This document shows, piece after piece, positions 2,008-6,491 of a stretch of DNA of 26,394 bases. The stretch lies in the IMG/VR virus record IMGVR_UViG_3300015241_000091, positions 1 through 26,394 of that record; one strand, 5' to 3'. Below the pieces are notes generated by a model. The model made no database searches and was not told the origin of the DNA. It saw only the letters and a list, made by a program, of their open reading frames with translations. Position 1 is the first letter of the stretch. Every line of letters starts with the position of its first letter. A program made the translations under genes and the position numbers. The DNA is from a virus.

Positions 2008-3318
2008 ATGCCAGAAGAAAGCTTGTTAGAATCAGCATCCGTAGACACAGCCGAAGTCGATACCACGGTTGAGGAAACTGGTGCGGATACAGGGATGTCC
2101 GATGATGTACCCACAGACGAAACTGGAGGCGAAGAATCTCTTGAAACAGATGGCGAACCGCTTTCCGCATCGAAACTATGGCGCGATCTCAAAGAACCAC
2201 TCAAAGCGGTCGATCCTAAGCTCCGTTCTGCGCTCAATAAGGCCATTCATAAGGCAGAAGCGTATGAAAAGAAGTTCCCCGAGGGACTCAGCCATGTAGA
2301 GACAGCGATGTCTGCGATTCAGCAGCTCTCGGACGATCCTGCGCTCCCAATGGAGAAGGTGATCGAGGAAGCAATTGCTAATCGTGATTATTTCCGCGAT
2401 CTGGACAGCAAGTTCACCTCTGGAAGCCCTGATTTCGTTGCAGCACTGGCCGATGCGGAGCCGAATGCTTTCCAGGCGATGATGCCGAATGCTTTAGCCA
2501 AGTTTGCCGAGGTAAACCCAGAAGGTCACTCTGCTTACATCGCAAAGGCGACGATGGGATACCTGAATGAGGCTGAAACACCGCTTCAGTTCAGTATCCT
2601 GCGTACATTCCTGCCTCAATTGCCTGCTGGACCGGTCACAGATCAGATTATTCAGGCTTGCGAGAAGATCTTCGGCACAGTCCAAGGGTTGAAGGGCTTT
2701 GCAGACAAGCCAATCACTCCGAAGTTCGATCCGAAGACACCAGAACAGCCGAATGATGGCATGGATGTTGCCGAACGCGAGACAAAACTCACTCTACGTG
2801 AGTGGAACTCAGAATTCCGTGACTCTGGTGTCAATATGGTGATGTCTGAGGCTGCAAAGGTCAACGTCGGACGCACTAAGTTGACCGAAACAGAACAGAA
2901 ACAAGTACTTGGAAAGGTAAGTGAAGAGCTGGATGCGCGTCTCGCAGTCAATAAAGACTACGGTAAGGCTATGCAGGGGTATTTGCGGGCTGGGAATAAG
3001 ACTGCATTCAATCAGCGCCTTCAGAGTGAGCGTAAAAAGCTGATTCCTGGAGCCACACGGCGTGCTGTAGACGATGTGGTTGCAGCTAGACCGAAGAATG
3101 CACCGAAACCAGCCGCAGCCGCTCCTGCGAAGCCTGGTGCTCCAGCAGGTGCAAAGCCATTACAGGGTGCGGTGCAGTATTCGCGTATCGCTGGTCATCC
3201 TTCGACGCAAGGTCTTCAGGTTGATTTGAACCGGACATCCAATTCGATGCTGGTCAAGCAACAGGCTTATATCAAGGGCCAGAATAATCCGGTTACTTGG
3301 GTTCGCGCAGCCAAATAG
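2008..3318 (+). CDS. scaffolding / capsid assembly protein
   Basis: 436 residues. Residues 1-50 are strongly acidic (Glu/Asp/Thr/Ser-rich, almost no Lys or Arg), the middle (about 60-330) is helical and charged, and a flexible Ala/Pro linker (about 355-380) leads to a basic C-terminal tail. An acidic disordered N-terminus, helical core and basic C-terminal segment is typical of phage scaffolding proteins, whose basic tail binds the inner face of the coat protein. Scaffolds organise coat subunits around the portal and leave before DNA enters. AAGGAG lies 8 bases before ATG. It lies between portal and major capsid genes, the usual place, but is separated from the capsid gene by a 1.9 kb accessory island. 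It ends at a strong terminator. The call is from context and composition; no family signature was recognised. Confidence 0.65.
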   Translation: MPEESLLESASVDTAEVDTTVEETGADTGMSDDVPTDETGGEESLETDGEPLSASKLWRDLKEPLKAVDPKLRSALNKAIHKAEAYEKKFPEGLSHVETAMSAIQQLSDDPALPMEKVIEEAIANRDYFRDLDSKFTSGSPDFVAALADAEPNAFQAMMPNALAKFAEVNPEGHSAYIAKATMGYLNEAETPLQFSILRTFLPQLPAGPVTDQIIQACEKIFGTVQGLKGFADKPITPKFDPKTPEQPNDGMDVAERETKLTLREWNSEFRDSGVNMVMSEAAKVNVGRTKLTETEQKQVLGKVSEELDARLAVNKDYGKAMQGYLRAGNKTAFNQRLQSERKKLIPGATRRAVDDVVAARPKNAPKPAAAAPAKPGAPAGAKPLQGAVQYSRIAGHPSTQGLQVDLNRTSNSMLVKQQAYIKGQNNPVTWVRAAK

Positions 3319-3336
3319 ACTTTCCTCCTCGGTTTG

Positions 3337-3365
3337 GGTCAGCCTTCGGGCTGACCTTATTTTTT
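3337..3365 (+). terminator. rho-independent terminator after scaffold gene
   Basis: Perfect 8-bp stem GGTCAGCC / GGCTGACC closed by a TTCG tetraloop, followed directly by TTATTTTTT. Textbook intrinsic terminator on the + strand, 18 bases after the scaffold stop. Read on the minus strand the same hairpin is followed by CAAACC, so it is not a full terminator for the converging genes. Confidence 0.93.
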
Positions 3366-3750
3366 AGAGTGAAGATACTATTTCCCAATATCGAGCAATA
3401 GCTTCTTCGTCATGATCATCTAGGAAATGGAAGTAATGCTTCTCTGAGGTCTTCTTTTCCTTTGATTTCAATGCTTCTAAAGAAGTTTCCTCAGGCTCAA
3501 ATTGATCTTCCAGTCCATAACAAGAACAGTGACAACCGTGGCATTCATATAGTTTCCCATCTCGCTTCCAAAGCATGAATGCATCGCCTTCATATGATCT
3601 ACCGCCATATGAGGCAAACAGAAGCTCTTCTTCTTTCGGGAAATCATTGGGAGTTGGTTTATAGGTTTTCACTCCGTCTATATAATTCCAATCAAACCAA
3701 TCCTTGCTTATATCTTCATAAGCCGACCATGAACCAAATATATTCTGCAT
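3364..3750 (-). CDS. hypothetical Cys-cluster protein
   Basis: 128 residues, reading towards the scaffold gene. A strong Shine-Dalgarno (GAGGAGG) lies before the ATG. The N-terminal half is aromatic-rich (many Trp, Tyr, Phe, Asp). At residues 70-77 there is a dense cysteine/histidine cluster, C-H-G-C-H-C-S-C, followed by YGLEDQFEPEE and a Lys/Glu-rich stretch. The C-H-x-C-x-C-Y-G...EDQ(F/W)EPE pattern recurs in small phage proteins of unknown role that I have seen near replication or early genes; metal binding is plausible but unproven. It is the second gene of a reverse-strand pair with the secreted protein at 3773-4270 (22 bases between them). It interrupts the conserved scaffold-capsid order, so it looks like an inserted accessory gene. 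Function unknown. Confidence 0.8.
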   Translation of the reverse strand: MQNIFGSWSAYEDISKDWFDWNYIDGVKTYKPTPNDFPKEEELLFASYGGRSYEGDAFMLWKRDGKLYECHGCHCSCYGLEDQFEPEETSLEALKSKEKKTSEKHYFHFLDDHDEEAIARYWEIVSSL

Positions 3751-3772: not shown

Positions 3773-4270
3773 CTATTTTATATGCTGAATTGGTGTCCCA
3801 ACCGGAGCAATATTCCGCGTCCGGGTGAAGTTCCGTCCCACAGCATAGCTCTCTGATGCCACATCCAGCATGAGAAGCGTTCTCGCCATCTTATGATGTC
3901 CATGCCTATTCAGAAGCCATGCTCCACCATAAACAGCCGCCAATGCTCCAGCCTGAAATGCAGCTTCGGAAGCGATCGATCCACCTTTGGGTGCAATTGG
4001 GTCCGACTCATGAAAGCACCGGCATGGATCGTTGAGAAGCTTGATTGTCGAATAGCCATCAAGTGCGCGAACGGTAGCATCTGCCGAGAACAGCGCGATG
4101 ACGAACTTGGTGTTAAATGTCTCTGGCTTTGGGGCCGGAACTGTCTTTGCGCTGGCAATCCAGGTATCGAGATAGTCTGGCTTGACGCTGGATGAGATTT
4201 GGGCTTGGCCGATGATTGCTCCGAGTAGAAAGAAAGATGCGATAACTGCGGTCTTGATTAGATTTTTCAT
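3773..4270 (-). CDS. secreted/periplasmic hypothetical protein
   Basis: 165 residues from the ATG at 4270, chosen over the ATG at 4309 because it has GAGGGA 9 bases upstream and begins directly with a signal peptide. Residues 1-23 are a Sec-type signal: Lys at 2 and 6, hydrophobic core AVIASFFLLGAIIG, predicted cut G-Q-A|Q. The mature part is about 142 residues with a Cys at the P-C-R-C-F-H pair, and a C-terminal helical part containing a hydrophobic stretch (AGALAAVYGGAWLL) and RHGHHKMARTLLML. That stretch could be a membrane helix. No family recognised by function. A phage-encoded exported protein placed as a reverse-strand cargo gene would suit envelope modification or superinfection exclusion, but nothing in the sequence proves that. 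Confidence 0.78.
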   Translation of the reverse strand: MKNLIKTAVIASFFLLGAIIGQAQISSSVKPDYLDTWIASAKTVPAPKPETFNTKFVIALFSADATVRALDGYSTIKLLNDPCRCFHESDPIAPKGGSIASEAAFQAGALAAVYGGAWLLNRHGHHKMARTLLMLDVASESYAVGRNFTRTRNIAPVGTPIQHIK

Positions 4271-4327
4271 GTTTGTAAGTCCCTCGAGAACAACCTTCGC
4301 ATGATCCAACCCAGATAAAACACAATT

Positions 4328-4357
4328 ATTTTATCCACATAGTACCTAAGTACCCAA
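4328..4357 (-). promoter_or_regulatory. candidate promoter for the 4270-3364 reverse pair
   Basis: On the minus strand TTGGGT (4357-4352), an 18-base spacer and TAAAAT (4333-4328) form a moderate sigma70-type promoter. Transcription would start near 4322, giving a leader of about 50 bases before the ATG at 4270. Match to consensus is fair only at -10. Confidence 0.35.
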
Positions 4358-4362
4358 AGAGT

Positions 4363-4388
4363 AAGGGCCGACAGTTATGTCAGCCCTT
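4363..4388. other. imperfect hairpin with adjacent TTGCGGAGG repeat
   Basis: AAGGGCCGACA (4363-4373), GTTA loop, TGTCAGCCCTT (4378-4388): 10 pairs with one C-A mismatch. No T-tract follows on the + strand. TTGCGGAGG is then repeated with a 12-base period (4387-4395 and 4399-4407), and GTCGGC at 4407-4412 can alternatively pair with GCCGAC at 4367-4372. It sits between the two divergent transcription units, so a regulatory or barrier role is possible. Confidence 0.4.
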
Positions 4389-4460
4389 GCGGAGGATGTT
4401 GCGGAGGTCGGCGGACAGTCTGAGGGACTTATCTGGAACCGACTGACTCACAATATAGCA

Positions 4461-4466
4461 TATAAT
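4461..4466 (+). promoter_or_regulatory. perfect -10 box before the nuclease gene
   Basis: TATAAT, matching the sigma70 -10 consensus exactly, in an A/T-rich tract (CAATATAGCATATAATGGGG). No good -35 hexamer lies 16-18 bases upstream (ACCGAC region). The start point would be near 4471-4474, inside the 5' arm of the outer stem of the leader structure at 4468-4530. Confidence 0.45.
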
Positions 4467-4467
4467 G

Positions 4468-4530
4468 GGGATGTCGGTGTTTGAGCACCGGCTAACGCCA
4501 ATCTCGCTGTAAGGAGCGAAATGACATCCC
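4468..4530 (+). promoter_or_regulatory. structured mRNA leader enclosing RBS and start codon
   Basis: An 8-bp perfect outer stem, GGGATGTC (4468-4475) with GACATCCC (4523-4530, codons 1-4), encloses three short hairpins in a row: GGTG-TTTGAG-CACC (4476-4489), GGC-TAAC-GCC (4490-4499) and TCGCT-GTAAGG-AGCGA (4504-4519). The Shine-Dalgarno AAGGAG (4511-4516) is in the loop and 3' arm of the last hairpin, and the ATG at 4521 sits at the junction beside the outer stem. All pairs were read directly from the sequence; the multi-branch fold and translational control are inferred. It matches no riboswitch or ribozyme family I recognise. Confidence 0.55.
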
Positions 4531-5111
4531 AAGGATCATCATATACTGGATACGTCTATCTTATTGGAGCTGCCAAATTCGGTTGGTACAAAATAGGTAT
4601 GGCCAAAACTCCCGAAGTAAGAATTGGAAATCTTGGCATATTACTCCCATTTAAGGTGCAGATTATAGCTATTTGGAAAACGACCAATAAAGCCCTTTTA
4701 GAATCAGAAATGCATAAGAAATATGGGAAACGGCTAATCAATGGCGAATGGTTTCTATTCACAGCTCTCCAAGTAAAGGAAATTGTTGATAGCGAACAAC
4801 CCTATGACGCTCTTCGTATATATTCTGCCTTCTCTGATCAGACTCCCAAATTCTGCTTCTCTAATGTGACAAGCAATAGAGTTATTTATGGTTCAGCATC
4901 TTCGATTCGAGGATGCTGGATAACAGAAGTTGCACAGAAGTATCTAAAAGATAATGAGTTGGAGAGCAATACCGCAAACAATAAAGCCGCTTGGGAATAT
5001 GCCGAGTCATGCAAGGACAAACGTAATCCGTTGATTGCACTTGACATTGCTTCTAAATGCTCAGATACTCAGGTCATAATCTGTCGTACGGCAGGGAGCG
5101 GAAACCCATAA
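4521..5111 (+). CDS. GIY-YIG / T5orf172-family nuclease-like protein
   Basis: 196 residues. The N-terminal 85 residues carry the GIY-YIG superfamily pattern in the T5orf172/MUG113 form: Y11-V-Y13 (GIY strand), Y23-K-I-G26 (YIG strand), R34 on the following helix, E61-x-E63-x-H65 and the terminal G75-E-W-F78. Members are DNA-binding or endonuclease-like proteins, often free-standing selfish genes or parts of mobile elements in phages. The C-terminal about 110 residues have no recognised domain and may give DNA specificity; they contain scattered Cys and a Lys/Asn-rich helical region. AAGGAG lies 5 bases before ATG inside a foldable leader. The gene sits alone on the + strand between a reverse-strand pair and the major capsid gene, as expected of a homing-type insertion next to a conserved target. 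Codon use is A/T-richer than in the neighbouring structural genes, which suggests separate acquisition. Activity is not proven. Confidence 0.8.
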   Translation: MTSQGSSYTGYVYLIGAAKFGWYKIGMAKTPEVRIGNLGILLPFKVQIIAIWKTTNKALLESEMHKKYGKRLINGEWFLFTALQVKEIVDSEQPYDALRIYSAFSDQTPKFCFSNVTSNRVIYGSASSIRGCWITEVAQKYLKDNELESNTANNKAAWEYAESCKDKRNPLIALDIASKCSDTQVIICRTAGSGNP

Positions 5112-5185
5112 ACCGATAGCCCTCGACTGGATTGAATATAGTGAAACGCATCGACTGGGCACCCGCCACCTAATAGGGTATGCGA

Positions 5186-5200
5186 TATAGCTAAGCTATA
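5186..5200. repeat. palindrome in the capsid gene leader
   Basis: TATAGC-TAA-GCTATA, a perfect 6-bp inverted repeat with a 3-base loop, 26 bases before the GTG start of the capsid gene. Upstream, TCGACTGG occurs twice (5123-5130 and 5151-5158), and GCAT/ATGC with ACCC/GGGT can pair around 5149-5183. It may be an operator, a transcript-stabilising 5' hairpin or the edge of the accessory insertion. Confidence 0.4.
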
Positions 5201-5225
5201 CATTCTATTCAGTAGAGGTAATAAC

Positions 5226-6491
5226 GTGAGTATTGCAAATGCAGCACAGGCGTTGGCTCAAGAACAGGAGTACGTACGCCCAGAGCTAGAGTATCTTTGC
5301 CTTTCAGCATCAGTATTCTGGAAGCGCGTGCAGAAGAACACCTCTGTGAAGCCGGTCTCAGACCGCCCAACCCGTGTACCGACTGTTCCTTCCGGTGGTG
5401 GTAAGCCAGCACAGGCTAACTTGAATGGTGGCGATCTCGGCCTCGGTTCCGGCCCGACTGGTGTTCCCGGTCAGTTGACCACAACCGCATTCTCCCACGC
5501 ATTCAGCTATACCGCTCAGGCAGAGTATGCGACTGATTCGGATGAGAAGGCAATCGAGAACTTTGCTACATGGACTCGTGCTTTCGCTCCTAAACAGTTT
5601 GCAAACTTCCTTGATGTTATGGCGCAGGGTAACGGTTCCGGCCAGATCGATACGATTCTCTCGACTGTTCTGTCGGGTGGATTGGTTGTCGGTATCGTCG
5701 TAACCAATGCAAACTTCTTCCTCGATGACCAGGACATTGATGTCTGGACGGGTGTTGGTGGTACGTTCATCACTTCCGTTACGGTTCAATCTTCGGATAT
5801 CCTTGGCAATACTCTCTGGCTGCAGACACCGGCTCCTGCAACGGTTGTTGCTGGACAGGGACTGTTTGTCAGCAAATCATCTGCTCAGGCTAATTCCAGC
5901 CTTATGGGTATCCGCGCTTATCAGGTTGGCACGAACACTGGCAACTGGATGGGCGTACAGCGCTCCGCATGGCCCGGAAAGTACAACACGCCCAATGTTC
6001 CGGTAAACGGCGCCCTGACACCCCAAAGCGTCCGTGCATTGCAGTCCTTGGTTGAGCTTTCCAAGGGTGAAGATGCAGATGACGGTATGGTCGCTCATTG
6101 CAATGTGGATGCACGCGATGCATGGGAGCAGAATGCACTCCTCGTACAGCACATCGATATGGCACAGCTCAAGGGCGATACCAGCGTCGATATGCTCAAG
6201 CGAAATGCACCGACCCAGATTGGTGGACGTGAGATGATCGTCAATCCTCGCGCTCTCCCAGGCTATATCGATTTCCTGAAGTTCAAGAACATCTTCAGCA
6301 TCGAAACGGCTCCGGTAGACTTCTATAGCGTCGCAGGCCAGACACTCTTTCCGCTGTATGGAGCGAGTGGCGGCATCATGACGGCTATGGTTTTCTACAT
6401 GATTTACGAAGGTCAGCTCGGCTTTGTTCAGACTCGTGAGAATGCCTTCATGAGTGGCATAACCATTCCGAAGTACATCTTGGGGCATTGA
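5226..6491 (+). CDS. major capsid protein
   Basis: 421 residues, starting with GTG preceded by AGAGGT at a good distance. It is expected to be the HK97-fold coat protein building the icosahedral shell. Support: place after portal and scaffold, typical length for coat proteins with a scaffold supplied separately, no Cys-rich or catalytic motif, a Gly/Pro-rich N-arm (residues 50-90), a helix-rich stretch around 100-130 (SDEKAIENFATWTRAFAPKQ) as in the spine helix region, beta-rich middle part (about 150-220), and a C-terminal half ending in hydrophobic and aromatic strands. Leading and trailing non-coding stretches each contain hairpins, which would fit a separately expressed, abundant transcript. 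No coat-family signature can be confirmed by eye; alternatives such as a second capsid protein are less likely because no other candidate exists nearby. Confidence 0.78.
   Translation: MSIANAAQALAQEQEYVRPELEYLCLSASVFWKRVQKNTSVKPVSDRPTRVPTVPSGGGKPAQANLNGGDLGLGSGPTGVPGQLTTTAFSHAFSYTAQAEYATDSDEKAIENFATWTRAFAPKQFANFLDVMAQGNGSGQIDTILSTVLSGGLVVGIVVTNANFFLDDQDIDVWTGVGGTFITSVTVQSSDILGNTLWLQTPAPATVVAGQGLFVSKSSAQANSSLMGIRAYQVGTNTGNWMGVQRSAWPGKYNTPNVPVNGALTPQSVRALQSLVELSKGEDADDGMVAHCNVDARDAWEQNALLVQHIDMAQLKGDTSVDMLKRNAPTQIGGREMIVNPRALPGYIDFLKFKNIFSIETAPVDFYSVAGQTLFPLYGASGGIMTAMVFYMIYEGQLGFVQTRENAFMSGITIPKYILGH

Follow-up and report, generated by a model that had tools for sequence, protein, structure and literature searches.

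The GIY-YIG nuclease gene of a 26.4 kb IMG/VR phage contig has a leader that is predicted to fold, together with the first codons of the gene, into a branched RNA structure around the Shine-Dalgarno (SD) sequence and the start codon. The leader probably acts in cis as an RNA lock and ties translation of the nuclease to the gene's own promoter. The contig was analysed as a whole and is called the window below. It carries a portal gene (136-1995), a scaffold-like gene (2008-3318) and a capsid gene (5226-6491), and the interval between the last two contains a terminator, two antisense genes and the nuclease gene:

3336-3357, + strand: intrinsic terminator after the scaffold-like gene, which limits read-through in this phage
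3364-3750 and 3773-4309, - strand: two antisense genes in the interval from the terminator to the nuclease gene
4521-5111, + strand: GIY-YIG nuclease gene of the T5orf172/MUG113 type, 196 aa, assigned by profile matches
5041-5069, + strand: promoter-like TTGACA-17-GATACT within the 3' end of the nuclease gene, a candidate promoter for the capsid gene

Both profile matches of the nuclease lie above curated cut-offs (PF13455, 8.8e-14, 52.3 bits with a cut-off of 22.3; PF10544, 3.8e-07, 31 bits with a cut-off of 20). Promoters embedded in T4 seg genes drive neighbouring genes, an arrangement to which that at 5041-5069 may be comparable. The product of 3364-3750 matches PHROG 21421 "integrase" (E 1e-24), a doubtful label for a protein of 128 aa with no Pfam match. 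The nuclease gene is intergenic between the scaffold-like and capsid genes, and Rfam searches of the whole window and of 4200-5300 gave no match to a group I intron. At the gathering threshold no Rfam family matches the window or 13 relatives; a mir-122 match in the scan (E 1.6) was dismissed as chance. A tRNA search found none. No close prophage or bacterial homologue of the nuclease was found, the only match being a partial one of 37% in a Streptomyces genome. In 26 phage relatives with both flanking genes readable, the scaffold-capsid gap contains no GIY-YIG nuclease gene. A different nuclease (HNH_3, weak AP2) is present in the same gap of the relative L027 (3154-3768, - strand), where it overlaps the end of the scaffold gene, which suggests that nucleases tend to insert in this gap. 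The absence of the gene from the 26 relatives and the other nuclease of L027 are consistent with homing.

The capsid gene has leaders of its own in the relatives. Upstream of it, L005-L030 (e.g., L018, 3485-3708) mostly have a TGATATAGT-like -10 element followed by a structured-looking leader of 100-250 nt. In eight aligned relatives a predicted 12-bp stem (GCTATAGCGATC / GATTGTTATGGC) would enclose the SD and the capsid ATG. Five pairs of this predicted fold are changed on both sides, and it matches no Rfam family. A kinship of the nuclease leader with these capsid-gene leaders was suspected.

The nuclease leader and its promoter comprise the following elements, where P1 is the closing stem and P2 to P4 are the hairpins that it encloses:

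4454-4459, + strand: possible alternative, weaker -10 element TATAGC (TATAGT at an equal offset in L035)
4461-4466, + strand: -10 element TATAAT (6/6) of the nuclease gene's own promoter; -10-like hexamers have the same place in L032, L033, L035, L073 and L044
4468-4475, + strand: 5' arm of P1, GGGATGTC, which holds the predicted start site (about 4472-4474)
4476-4489, + strand: hairpin P2 (GGTGT-TTGA-GCACC), with compensatory changes in L035 and L073
4490-4499, + strand: hairpin P3 (GGC-TAAC-GCC), which L073 has as well
4504-4519, + strand: hairpin P4 (TCGCT-GTAAGG-AGCGA), which holds the SD; an SD hairpin is also found in L032, L033, L035 and L073
4512-4517, + strand: SD sequence AAGGAG, with AAGG in the P4 loop and AG in the P4 stem
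4523-4530, + strand: 3' arm of P1, GACATCCC, which starts at the G of the ATG and stops at base 2 of codon 4

P1 is a perfect 8-bp pairing of 4468-4475 with 4523-4530. The initial annotation had described this architecture from the letters of the window, and it holds with small corrections. The TATAAT does lie directly before the leader. The perfect 8-bp stem is there, but its 3' arm begins at the G of the ATG and ends at base 2 of codon 4, and so does not cover codons 1-4 in full. All three hairpins were found, but AAGGAG is half in a loop and not fully presented by the last of them. The SD hairpin and the AUG are enclosed by P1 as had been claimed; the A and U of the AUG sit in the junction, outside the stem. 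The RNA of 4461-4530 has a predicted folding energy of -29.7 kcal/mol, as compared to a mean of -16.5 (sd 2.9) for dinucleotide shuffles (z -4.6), and 0 of 1000 shuffles are as low; for 4468-4532 the z-score against such shuffles is -5.2. Among the 21 gene starts of the window, the nuclease start alone has a z-score below -4. As in an I-TevI-type lock, the start site (RBS and AUG) is thus enclosed by stable RNA structure. The leader also contains a small ORF (4471-4512; ATG TCG GTG TTT GAG CAC CGG CTA ACG CCA ATC TCG CTG TAA) that begins in the 5' arm and has its stop codon on the nuclease SD. Its reading as a leader peptide was rejected, as L035 and L033 do not keep this frame.

The -35 region of the nuclease promoter is poor, and a sigma70 scan listed no promoter at the leader. 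The window (4451-4466) and L035 (about 2922-2935) have in common a tandem TATAG[CT]-R-TATAATGGGG before the arm, which gives two overlapping -10 candidates, the second -10-like hexamer lying 7 nt upstream of the first. If TATAGC were used, the transcript would carry the complete 5' arm. The hexamers of the lineages described below (TATAAT, TAAAAT, TAGCAT) are sigma70-like and are not T4 late promoters of the TATAAATA type (gp55). A promoter for a T7-like polymerase was considered, as GACTCACAATATAG resembles one; a PF00940 search of 14 records gave no match, and the controls were equally without a match.

Relatives were found in viral contigs with the nuclease protein as the query and their upstream DNA was read afterwards, so that none was found via its leader; a search of viral contigs for the exact leader pattern gave no match. 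Five further lineages with 36-44% protein identity carry a leader, and each has a 5' arm complementary to the gene start, with the end of a -10-like hexamer 0-1 nt ahead of it. In L032 (three identical contigs), TAGCAT is followed by the arms GGGGATTG and CAATCCCC. In L035 and the near-identical L037, TATAAT precedes the arms GGGGTTG and CAACCCC. TATAAT is also found in L073 (and L074), where the arms GAGGCATC and GATGCCTC close a four-way junction as in the window with a different closing stem. The small middle hairpin is missing from L032 and L035. The leader of L033 (TAAAAT, arms AGGGGTATC and ACGCCCCT) comprises only the closing stem and the SD hairpin, while that of L044 is minimal, with TAAGAT, a single C and a plain stem (AGCCGGGCT and AGCCCGGTT) without the SD. 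L002 and L059 have no leader though they belong to the same protein clade. In the proteins whose genes carry the leader, GYVYLIG is preceded by 4-10 residues, and the 3' arm lies in the stretch that encodes them; most relatives without the leader begin MxGYVYLIG (MAGYVYLIG or similar).

Sixteen of the 18 helix pairs are changed on both sides with pairing kept among the window, L032, L035 and L073, and all 72 cells of these pairs (72/72) are standard pairs, as counted on a structure-guided alignment, which leans towards structure. This alignment was used because a MAFFT alignment of the leaders misplaces the arms by one base. Since its construction followed the structure, it was complemented by two tests with less bias. 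When each 5' arm was set against every 3' side, the true assignment was the best of 120 permutations. In the other test, every ATG start of an ORF of at least 120 aa in the loci analysed was scanned for a -10 hexamer and, after it, 10 nt able to pair with the start region. Among the 679 ATGs the top five places go to GIY genes, and six GIY lineages reach -13.0 kcal/mol or better as against 1 of 641 control ATGs (Fisher 7.6e-9, an approximate value because the 38 GIY ATGs include internal ones and L073 has two ATGs). The same fold is written with different letters in distant relatives, which suggests selection on the fold itself. What the sequences show directly is the structure, its conservation through compensatory changes and a -10 element at a fixed position relative to the arm, and the leader structure appears to be evolutionarily maintained. 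The initial annotation had staked its reading on compensatory changes in homologous leaders; these are present, and it stands on this point.

The predicted effect of the leader depends on where its transcript starts. Read-through RNAs were modelled from 5' ends that lie 30-200 nt ahead of the arm. The mean pair probability of P1 is about 0.9-1.0 in most such RNAs of the window, L032, L033, L035 and L073, with dips to 0.36-0.77 for one 5' end in the window and to 0.52 once in L035; the stem of L044 is lost in longer read-through contexts. A promoter of the sigma70 type should start transcription at +6 to +8 after the -10 element. With 5' ends at these positions, the predicted probability of P1 is 0-0.06 in the window, L032, L033, L035 and L073, while the stem of L044 is still at 0.94 at +6 and falls to 0.15 at +7. 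The switch of P1 according to the 5' end, full in read-through RNA and gone at +6 to +8, is thus predicted in the direction that had been proposed for it.

The cost of clearing positions -15 to +15 for the ribosome (the 30S footprint) falls upon truncation in all six lineages. It is predicted to go from 14.1-16.7 to 11.8 kcal/mol in the window, from 18-19 to 8 in L032, from 10-11 to 5.7 in L035, from 20 to 12 in L073, from 23.5 to 8.8 in L033 and from 16-17 to about 11 in L044. Control starts truncated in a like manner show a mean change of 0.6 (sd 2.3), and 11% of them drop by 3 or more. The predicted change is large in L032, L073 and L033. The predicted gain in the window is modest (about 2-5 kcal/mol) because the SD hairpin stays folded in both transcripts. 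The weak stem that had been expected in the short transcript corresponds to the predicted loss of P1, but the SD hairpin remains. Read-through RNA is expected in L032, with about 80 nt from the end of the upstream gene to the nuclease gene, and in L033, whose upstream gene ends in a TGA overlapping the extended -10 element. These are the only two lineages with a clear source of read-through, because a terminator and antisense genes lie upstream in the window.

We infer the transcription start, the effect on translation and the purpose of the leader as follows. In read-through RNA from upstream, the complete 5' arm would pair with codons 1-4 and shut the SD hairpin and the AUG inside a junction, and it is proposed that 30S loading is therefore blocked. 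An RNA started about 7 nt after TATAAT would be missing 5-6 bases of the arm. P1 could then not form and the gene would become translatable, tempered by the small SD hairpin. The purpose may be that a putative homing nuclease is kept silent on messages of the structural operon.

The same fold might instead act as a permanent brake, if transcripts start upstream of the arm (from TATAGC at 4454, or by read-through only) and translation of the nuclease is always low. The tandem hexamers of the window and L035 would suit such a brake, as would the SD hairpin that is kept in both forms and the high opening costs. We consider it unlikely, since a plain brake has no need of a hexamer 0-1 nt before the arm in six lineages, and L073, L033 and L044 have a single -10-like hexamer. 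The fixed position of this hexamer is also left unexplained if the leader is a protein-binding switch, in which the nuclease or another phage protein binds the SD-loop hairpin and regulates the gene. L032, L033, L035 and L073 do keep a hairpin whose loop contains all or part of the SD, but its loop and stem sequences vary between lineages, unlike a typical protein target, which makes such a switch improbable.

Variation of the letters also bears on a DNA operator, in which the inverted repeat would serve a DNA-binding protein and the RNA fold would be incidental. The repeat does overlap the promoter, and I-TevI autorepresses by binding its own promoter (PMC2988022). We regard an operator as very improbable, as the lineages have different repeat sequences that are nevertheless complementary, P2 and P4 show covariation too, and the arms are 47 nt apart. 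That the fold is a chance product of a GC-rich leader deserves next to no credence: several 70-nt stretches elsewhere fold about as strongly, but compensatory changes in independent homologues refute this explanation, and only 1 of 641 control starts is comparable. A lock that is released by the gene's own promoter hence remains the preferred reading.

A related arrangement may exist in sister branches of the nuclease family. The nuclease-domain tree places the six leader-bearing genes together with L002 and L059 with moderate support (91/82), and most other relatives lie across a weakly supported branch; L044 was labelled 'other' in that run. On the other side of that branch, in L056, L060, L062, L063, L068 and L097, a -10 element (5 or 6 of 6) is found 5-6 nt before the ATG and there is no usable SD. 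L076 and L079 have an equal arrangement at 7 nt, and L061 has a weaker -10 element. The genes start as follows, with a -10 element that is often TGNTATAAT:

L056, 2998
L060, 2995
L062, 2995
L063, 2995
L068, 3007
L076, 2941
L097, 2926

Only 3 of 193 other starts have this geometry of a -10 element and an SD-less ATG (Fisher about 8e-5). If transcription starts where expected, these messages are putatively leaderless, and leaderless, SD-less messages would also be read poorly from read-through RNA. That the whole family can be translated from its own promoter only, by an RNA lock or by a leaderless SD-less message in the sister branches, is a tentative proposal that we would hesitate to affirm. 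If true, the I-TevI logic would have arisen independently of T4, and free-standing nuclease genes within structural operons would follow a general rule.

Translation of selfish nucleases from their own promoter only has been worked out so far in T4-like phages. Promoter-dependent translational control is described for T4 I-TevI, I-TevII, I-TevIII and segB, Aeh1 mobE and gene e (PMC2988022, PMC3014915). The likeness to I-TevI drawn in the initial annotation agrees with these T4 reviews, which describe the same logic (PMC2988022, PMC3014915). Long transcripts of T4 gene e (lysozyme) contain an inhibitory structure whose 5' portion is missing from the late ones, and the T4 soc leader has an inhibitory structure too (PMC3014915). 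Unlike the window gene, gene e and soc encode non-nucleases and have T4 late promoters and simple stem-loops. The T5orf172 homing genes of ICP1-like and T5-like phages are often found in capsid-gene neighbourhoods (31%; PMC10448857). They share the nuclease domain family and the capsid-gene neighbourhood with the window gene, and homing is putative in both; the main text of that paper mentions no promoter or hairpin. A search of open-access papers found no description of the leader reported here. Its structural motif could be used to spot self-regulated nuclease genes in environmental phage data.

As in I-TevI, I-TevII, I-TevIII, segB and mobE, a phage endonuclease gene here has its RBS and start codon in RNA structure. 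Similarly, the -10 element is placed such that the gene's own transcript, from its predicted start, would be without the 5' arm while RNA initiated upstream would have the full structure. By analogy the leader would work like the I-TevI lock, and nothing seen suggests common descent. The promoter is a sigma70-like TATAAT here and a T4 late promoter there. Unlike the I-TevI group, the gene is free-standing between scaffold-like and capsid genes of non-T4 phages, and it encodes a T5orf172/MUG113-type GIY-YIG protein. The structure also differs, as codons 1-4 close a three- or four-way junction and the SD lies in a separate hairpin that survives truncation. In unrelated phages, with promoters of the host type and another RNA architecture, compensatory evolution suggests that silence on structural-gene messages has been selected repeatedly.
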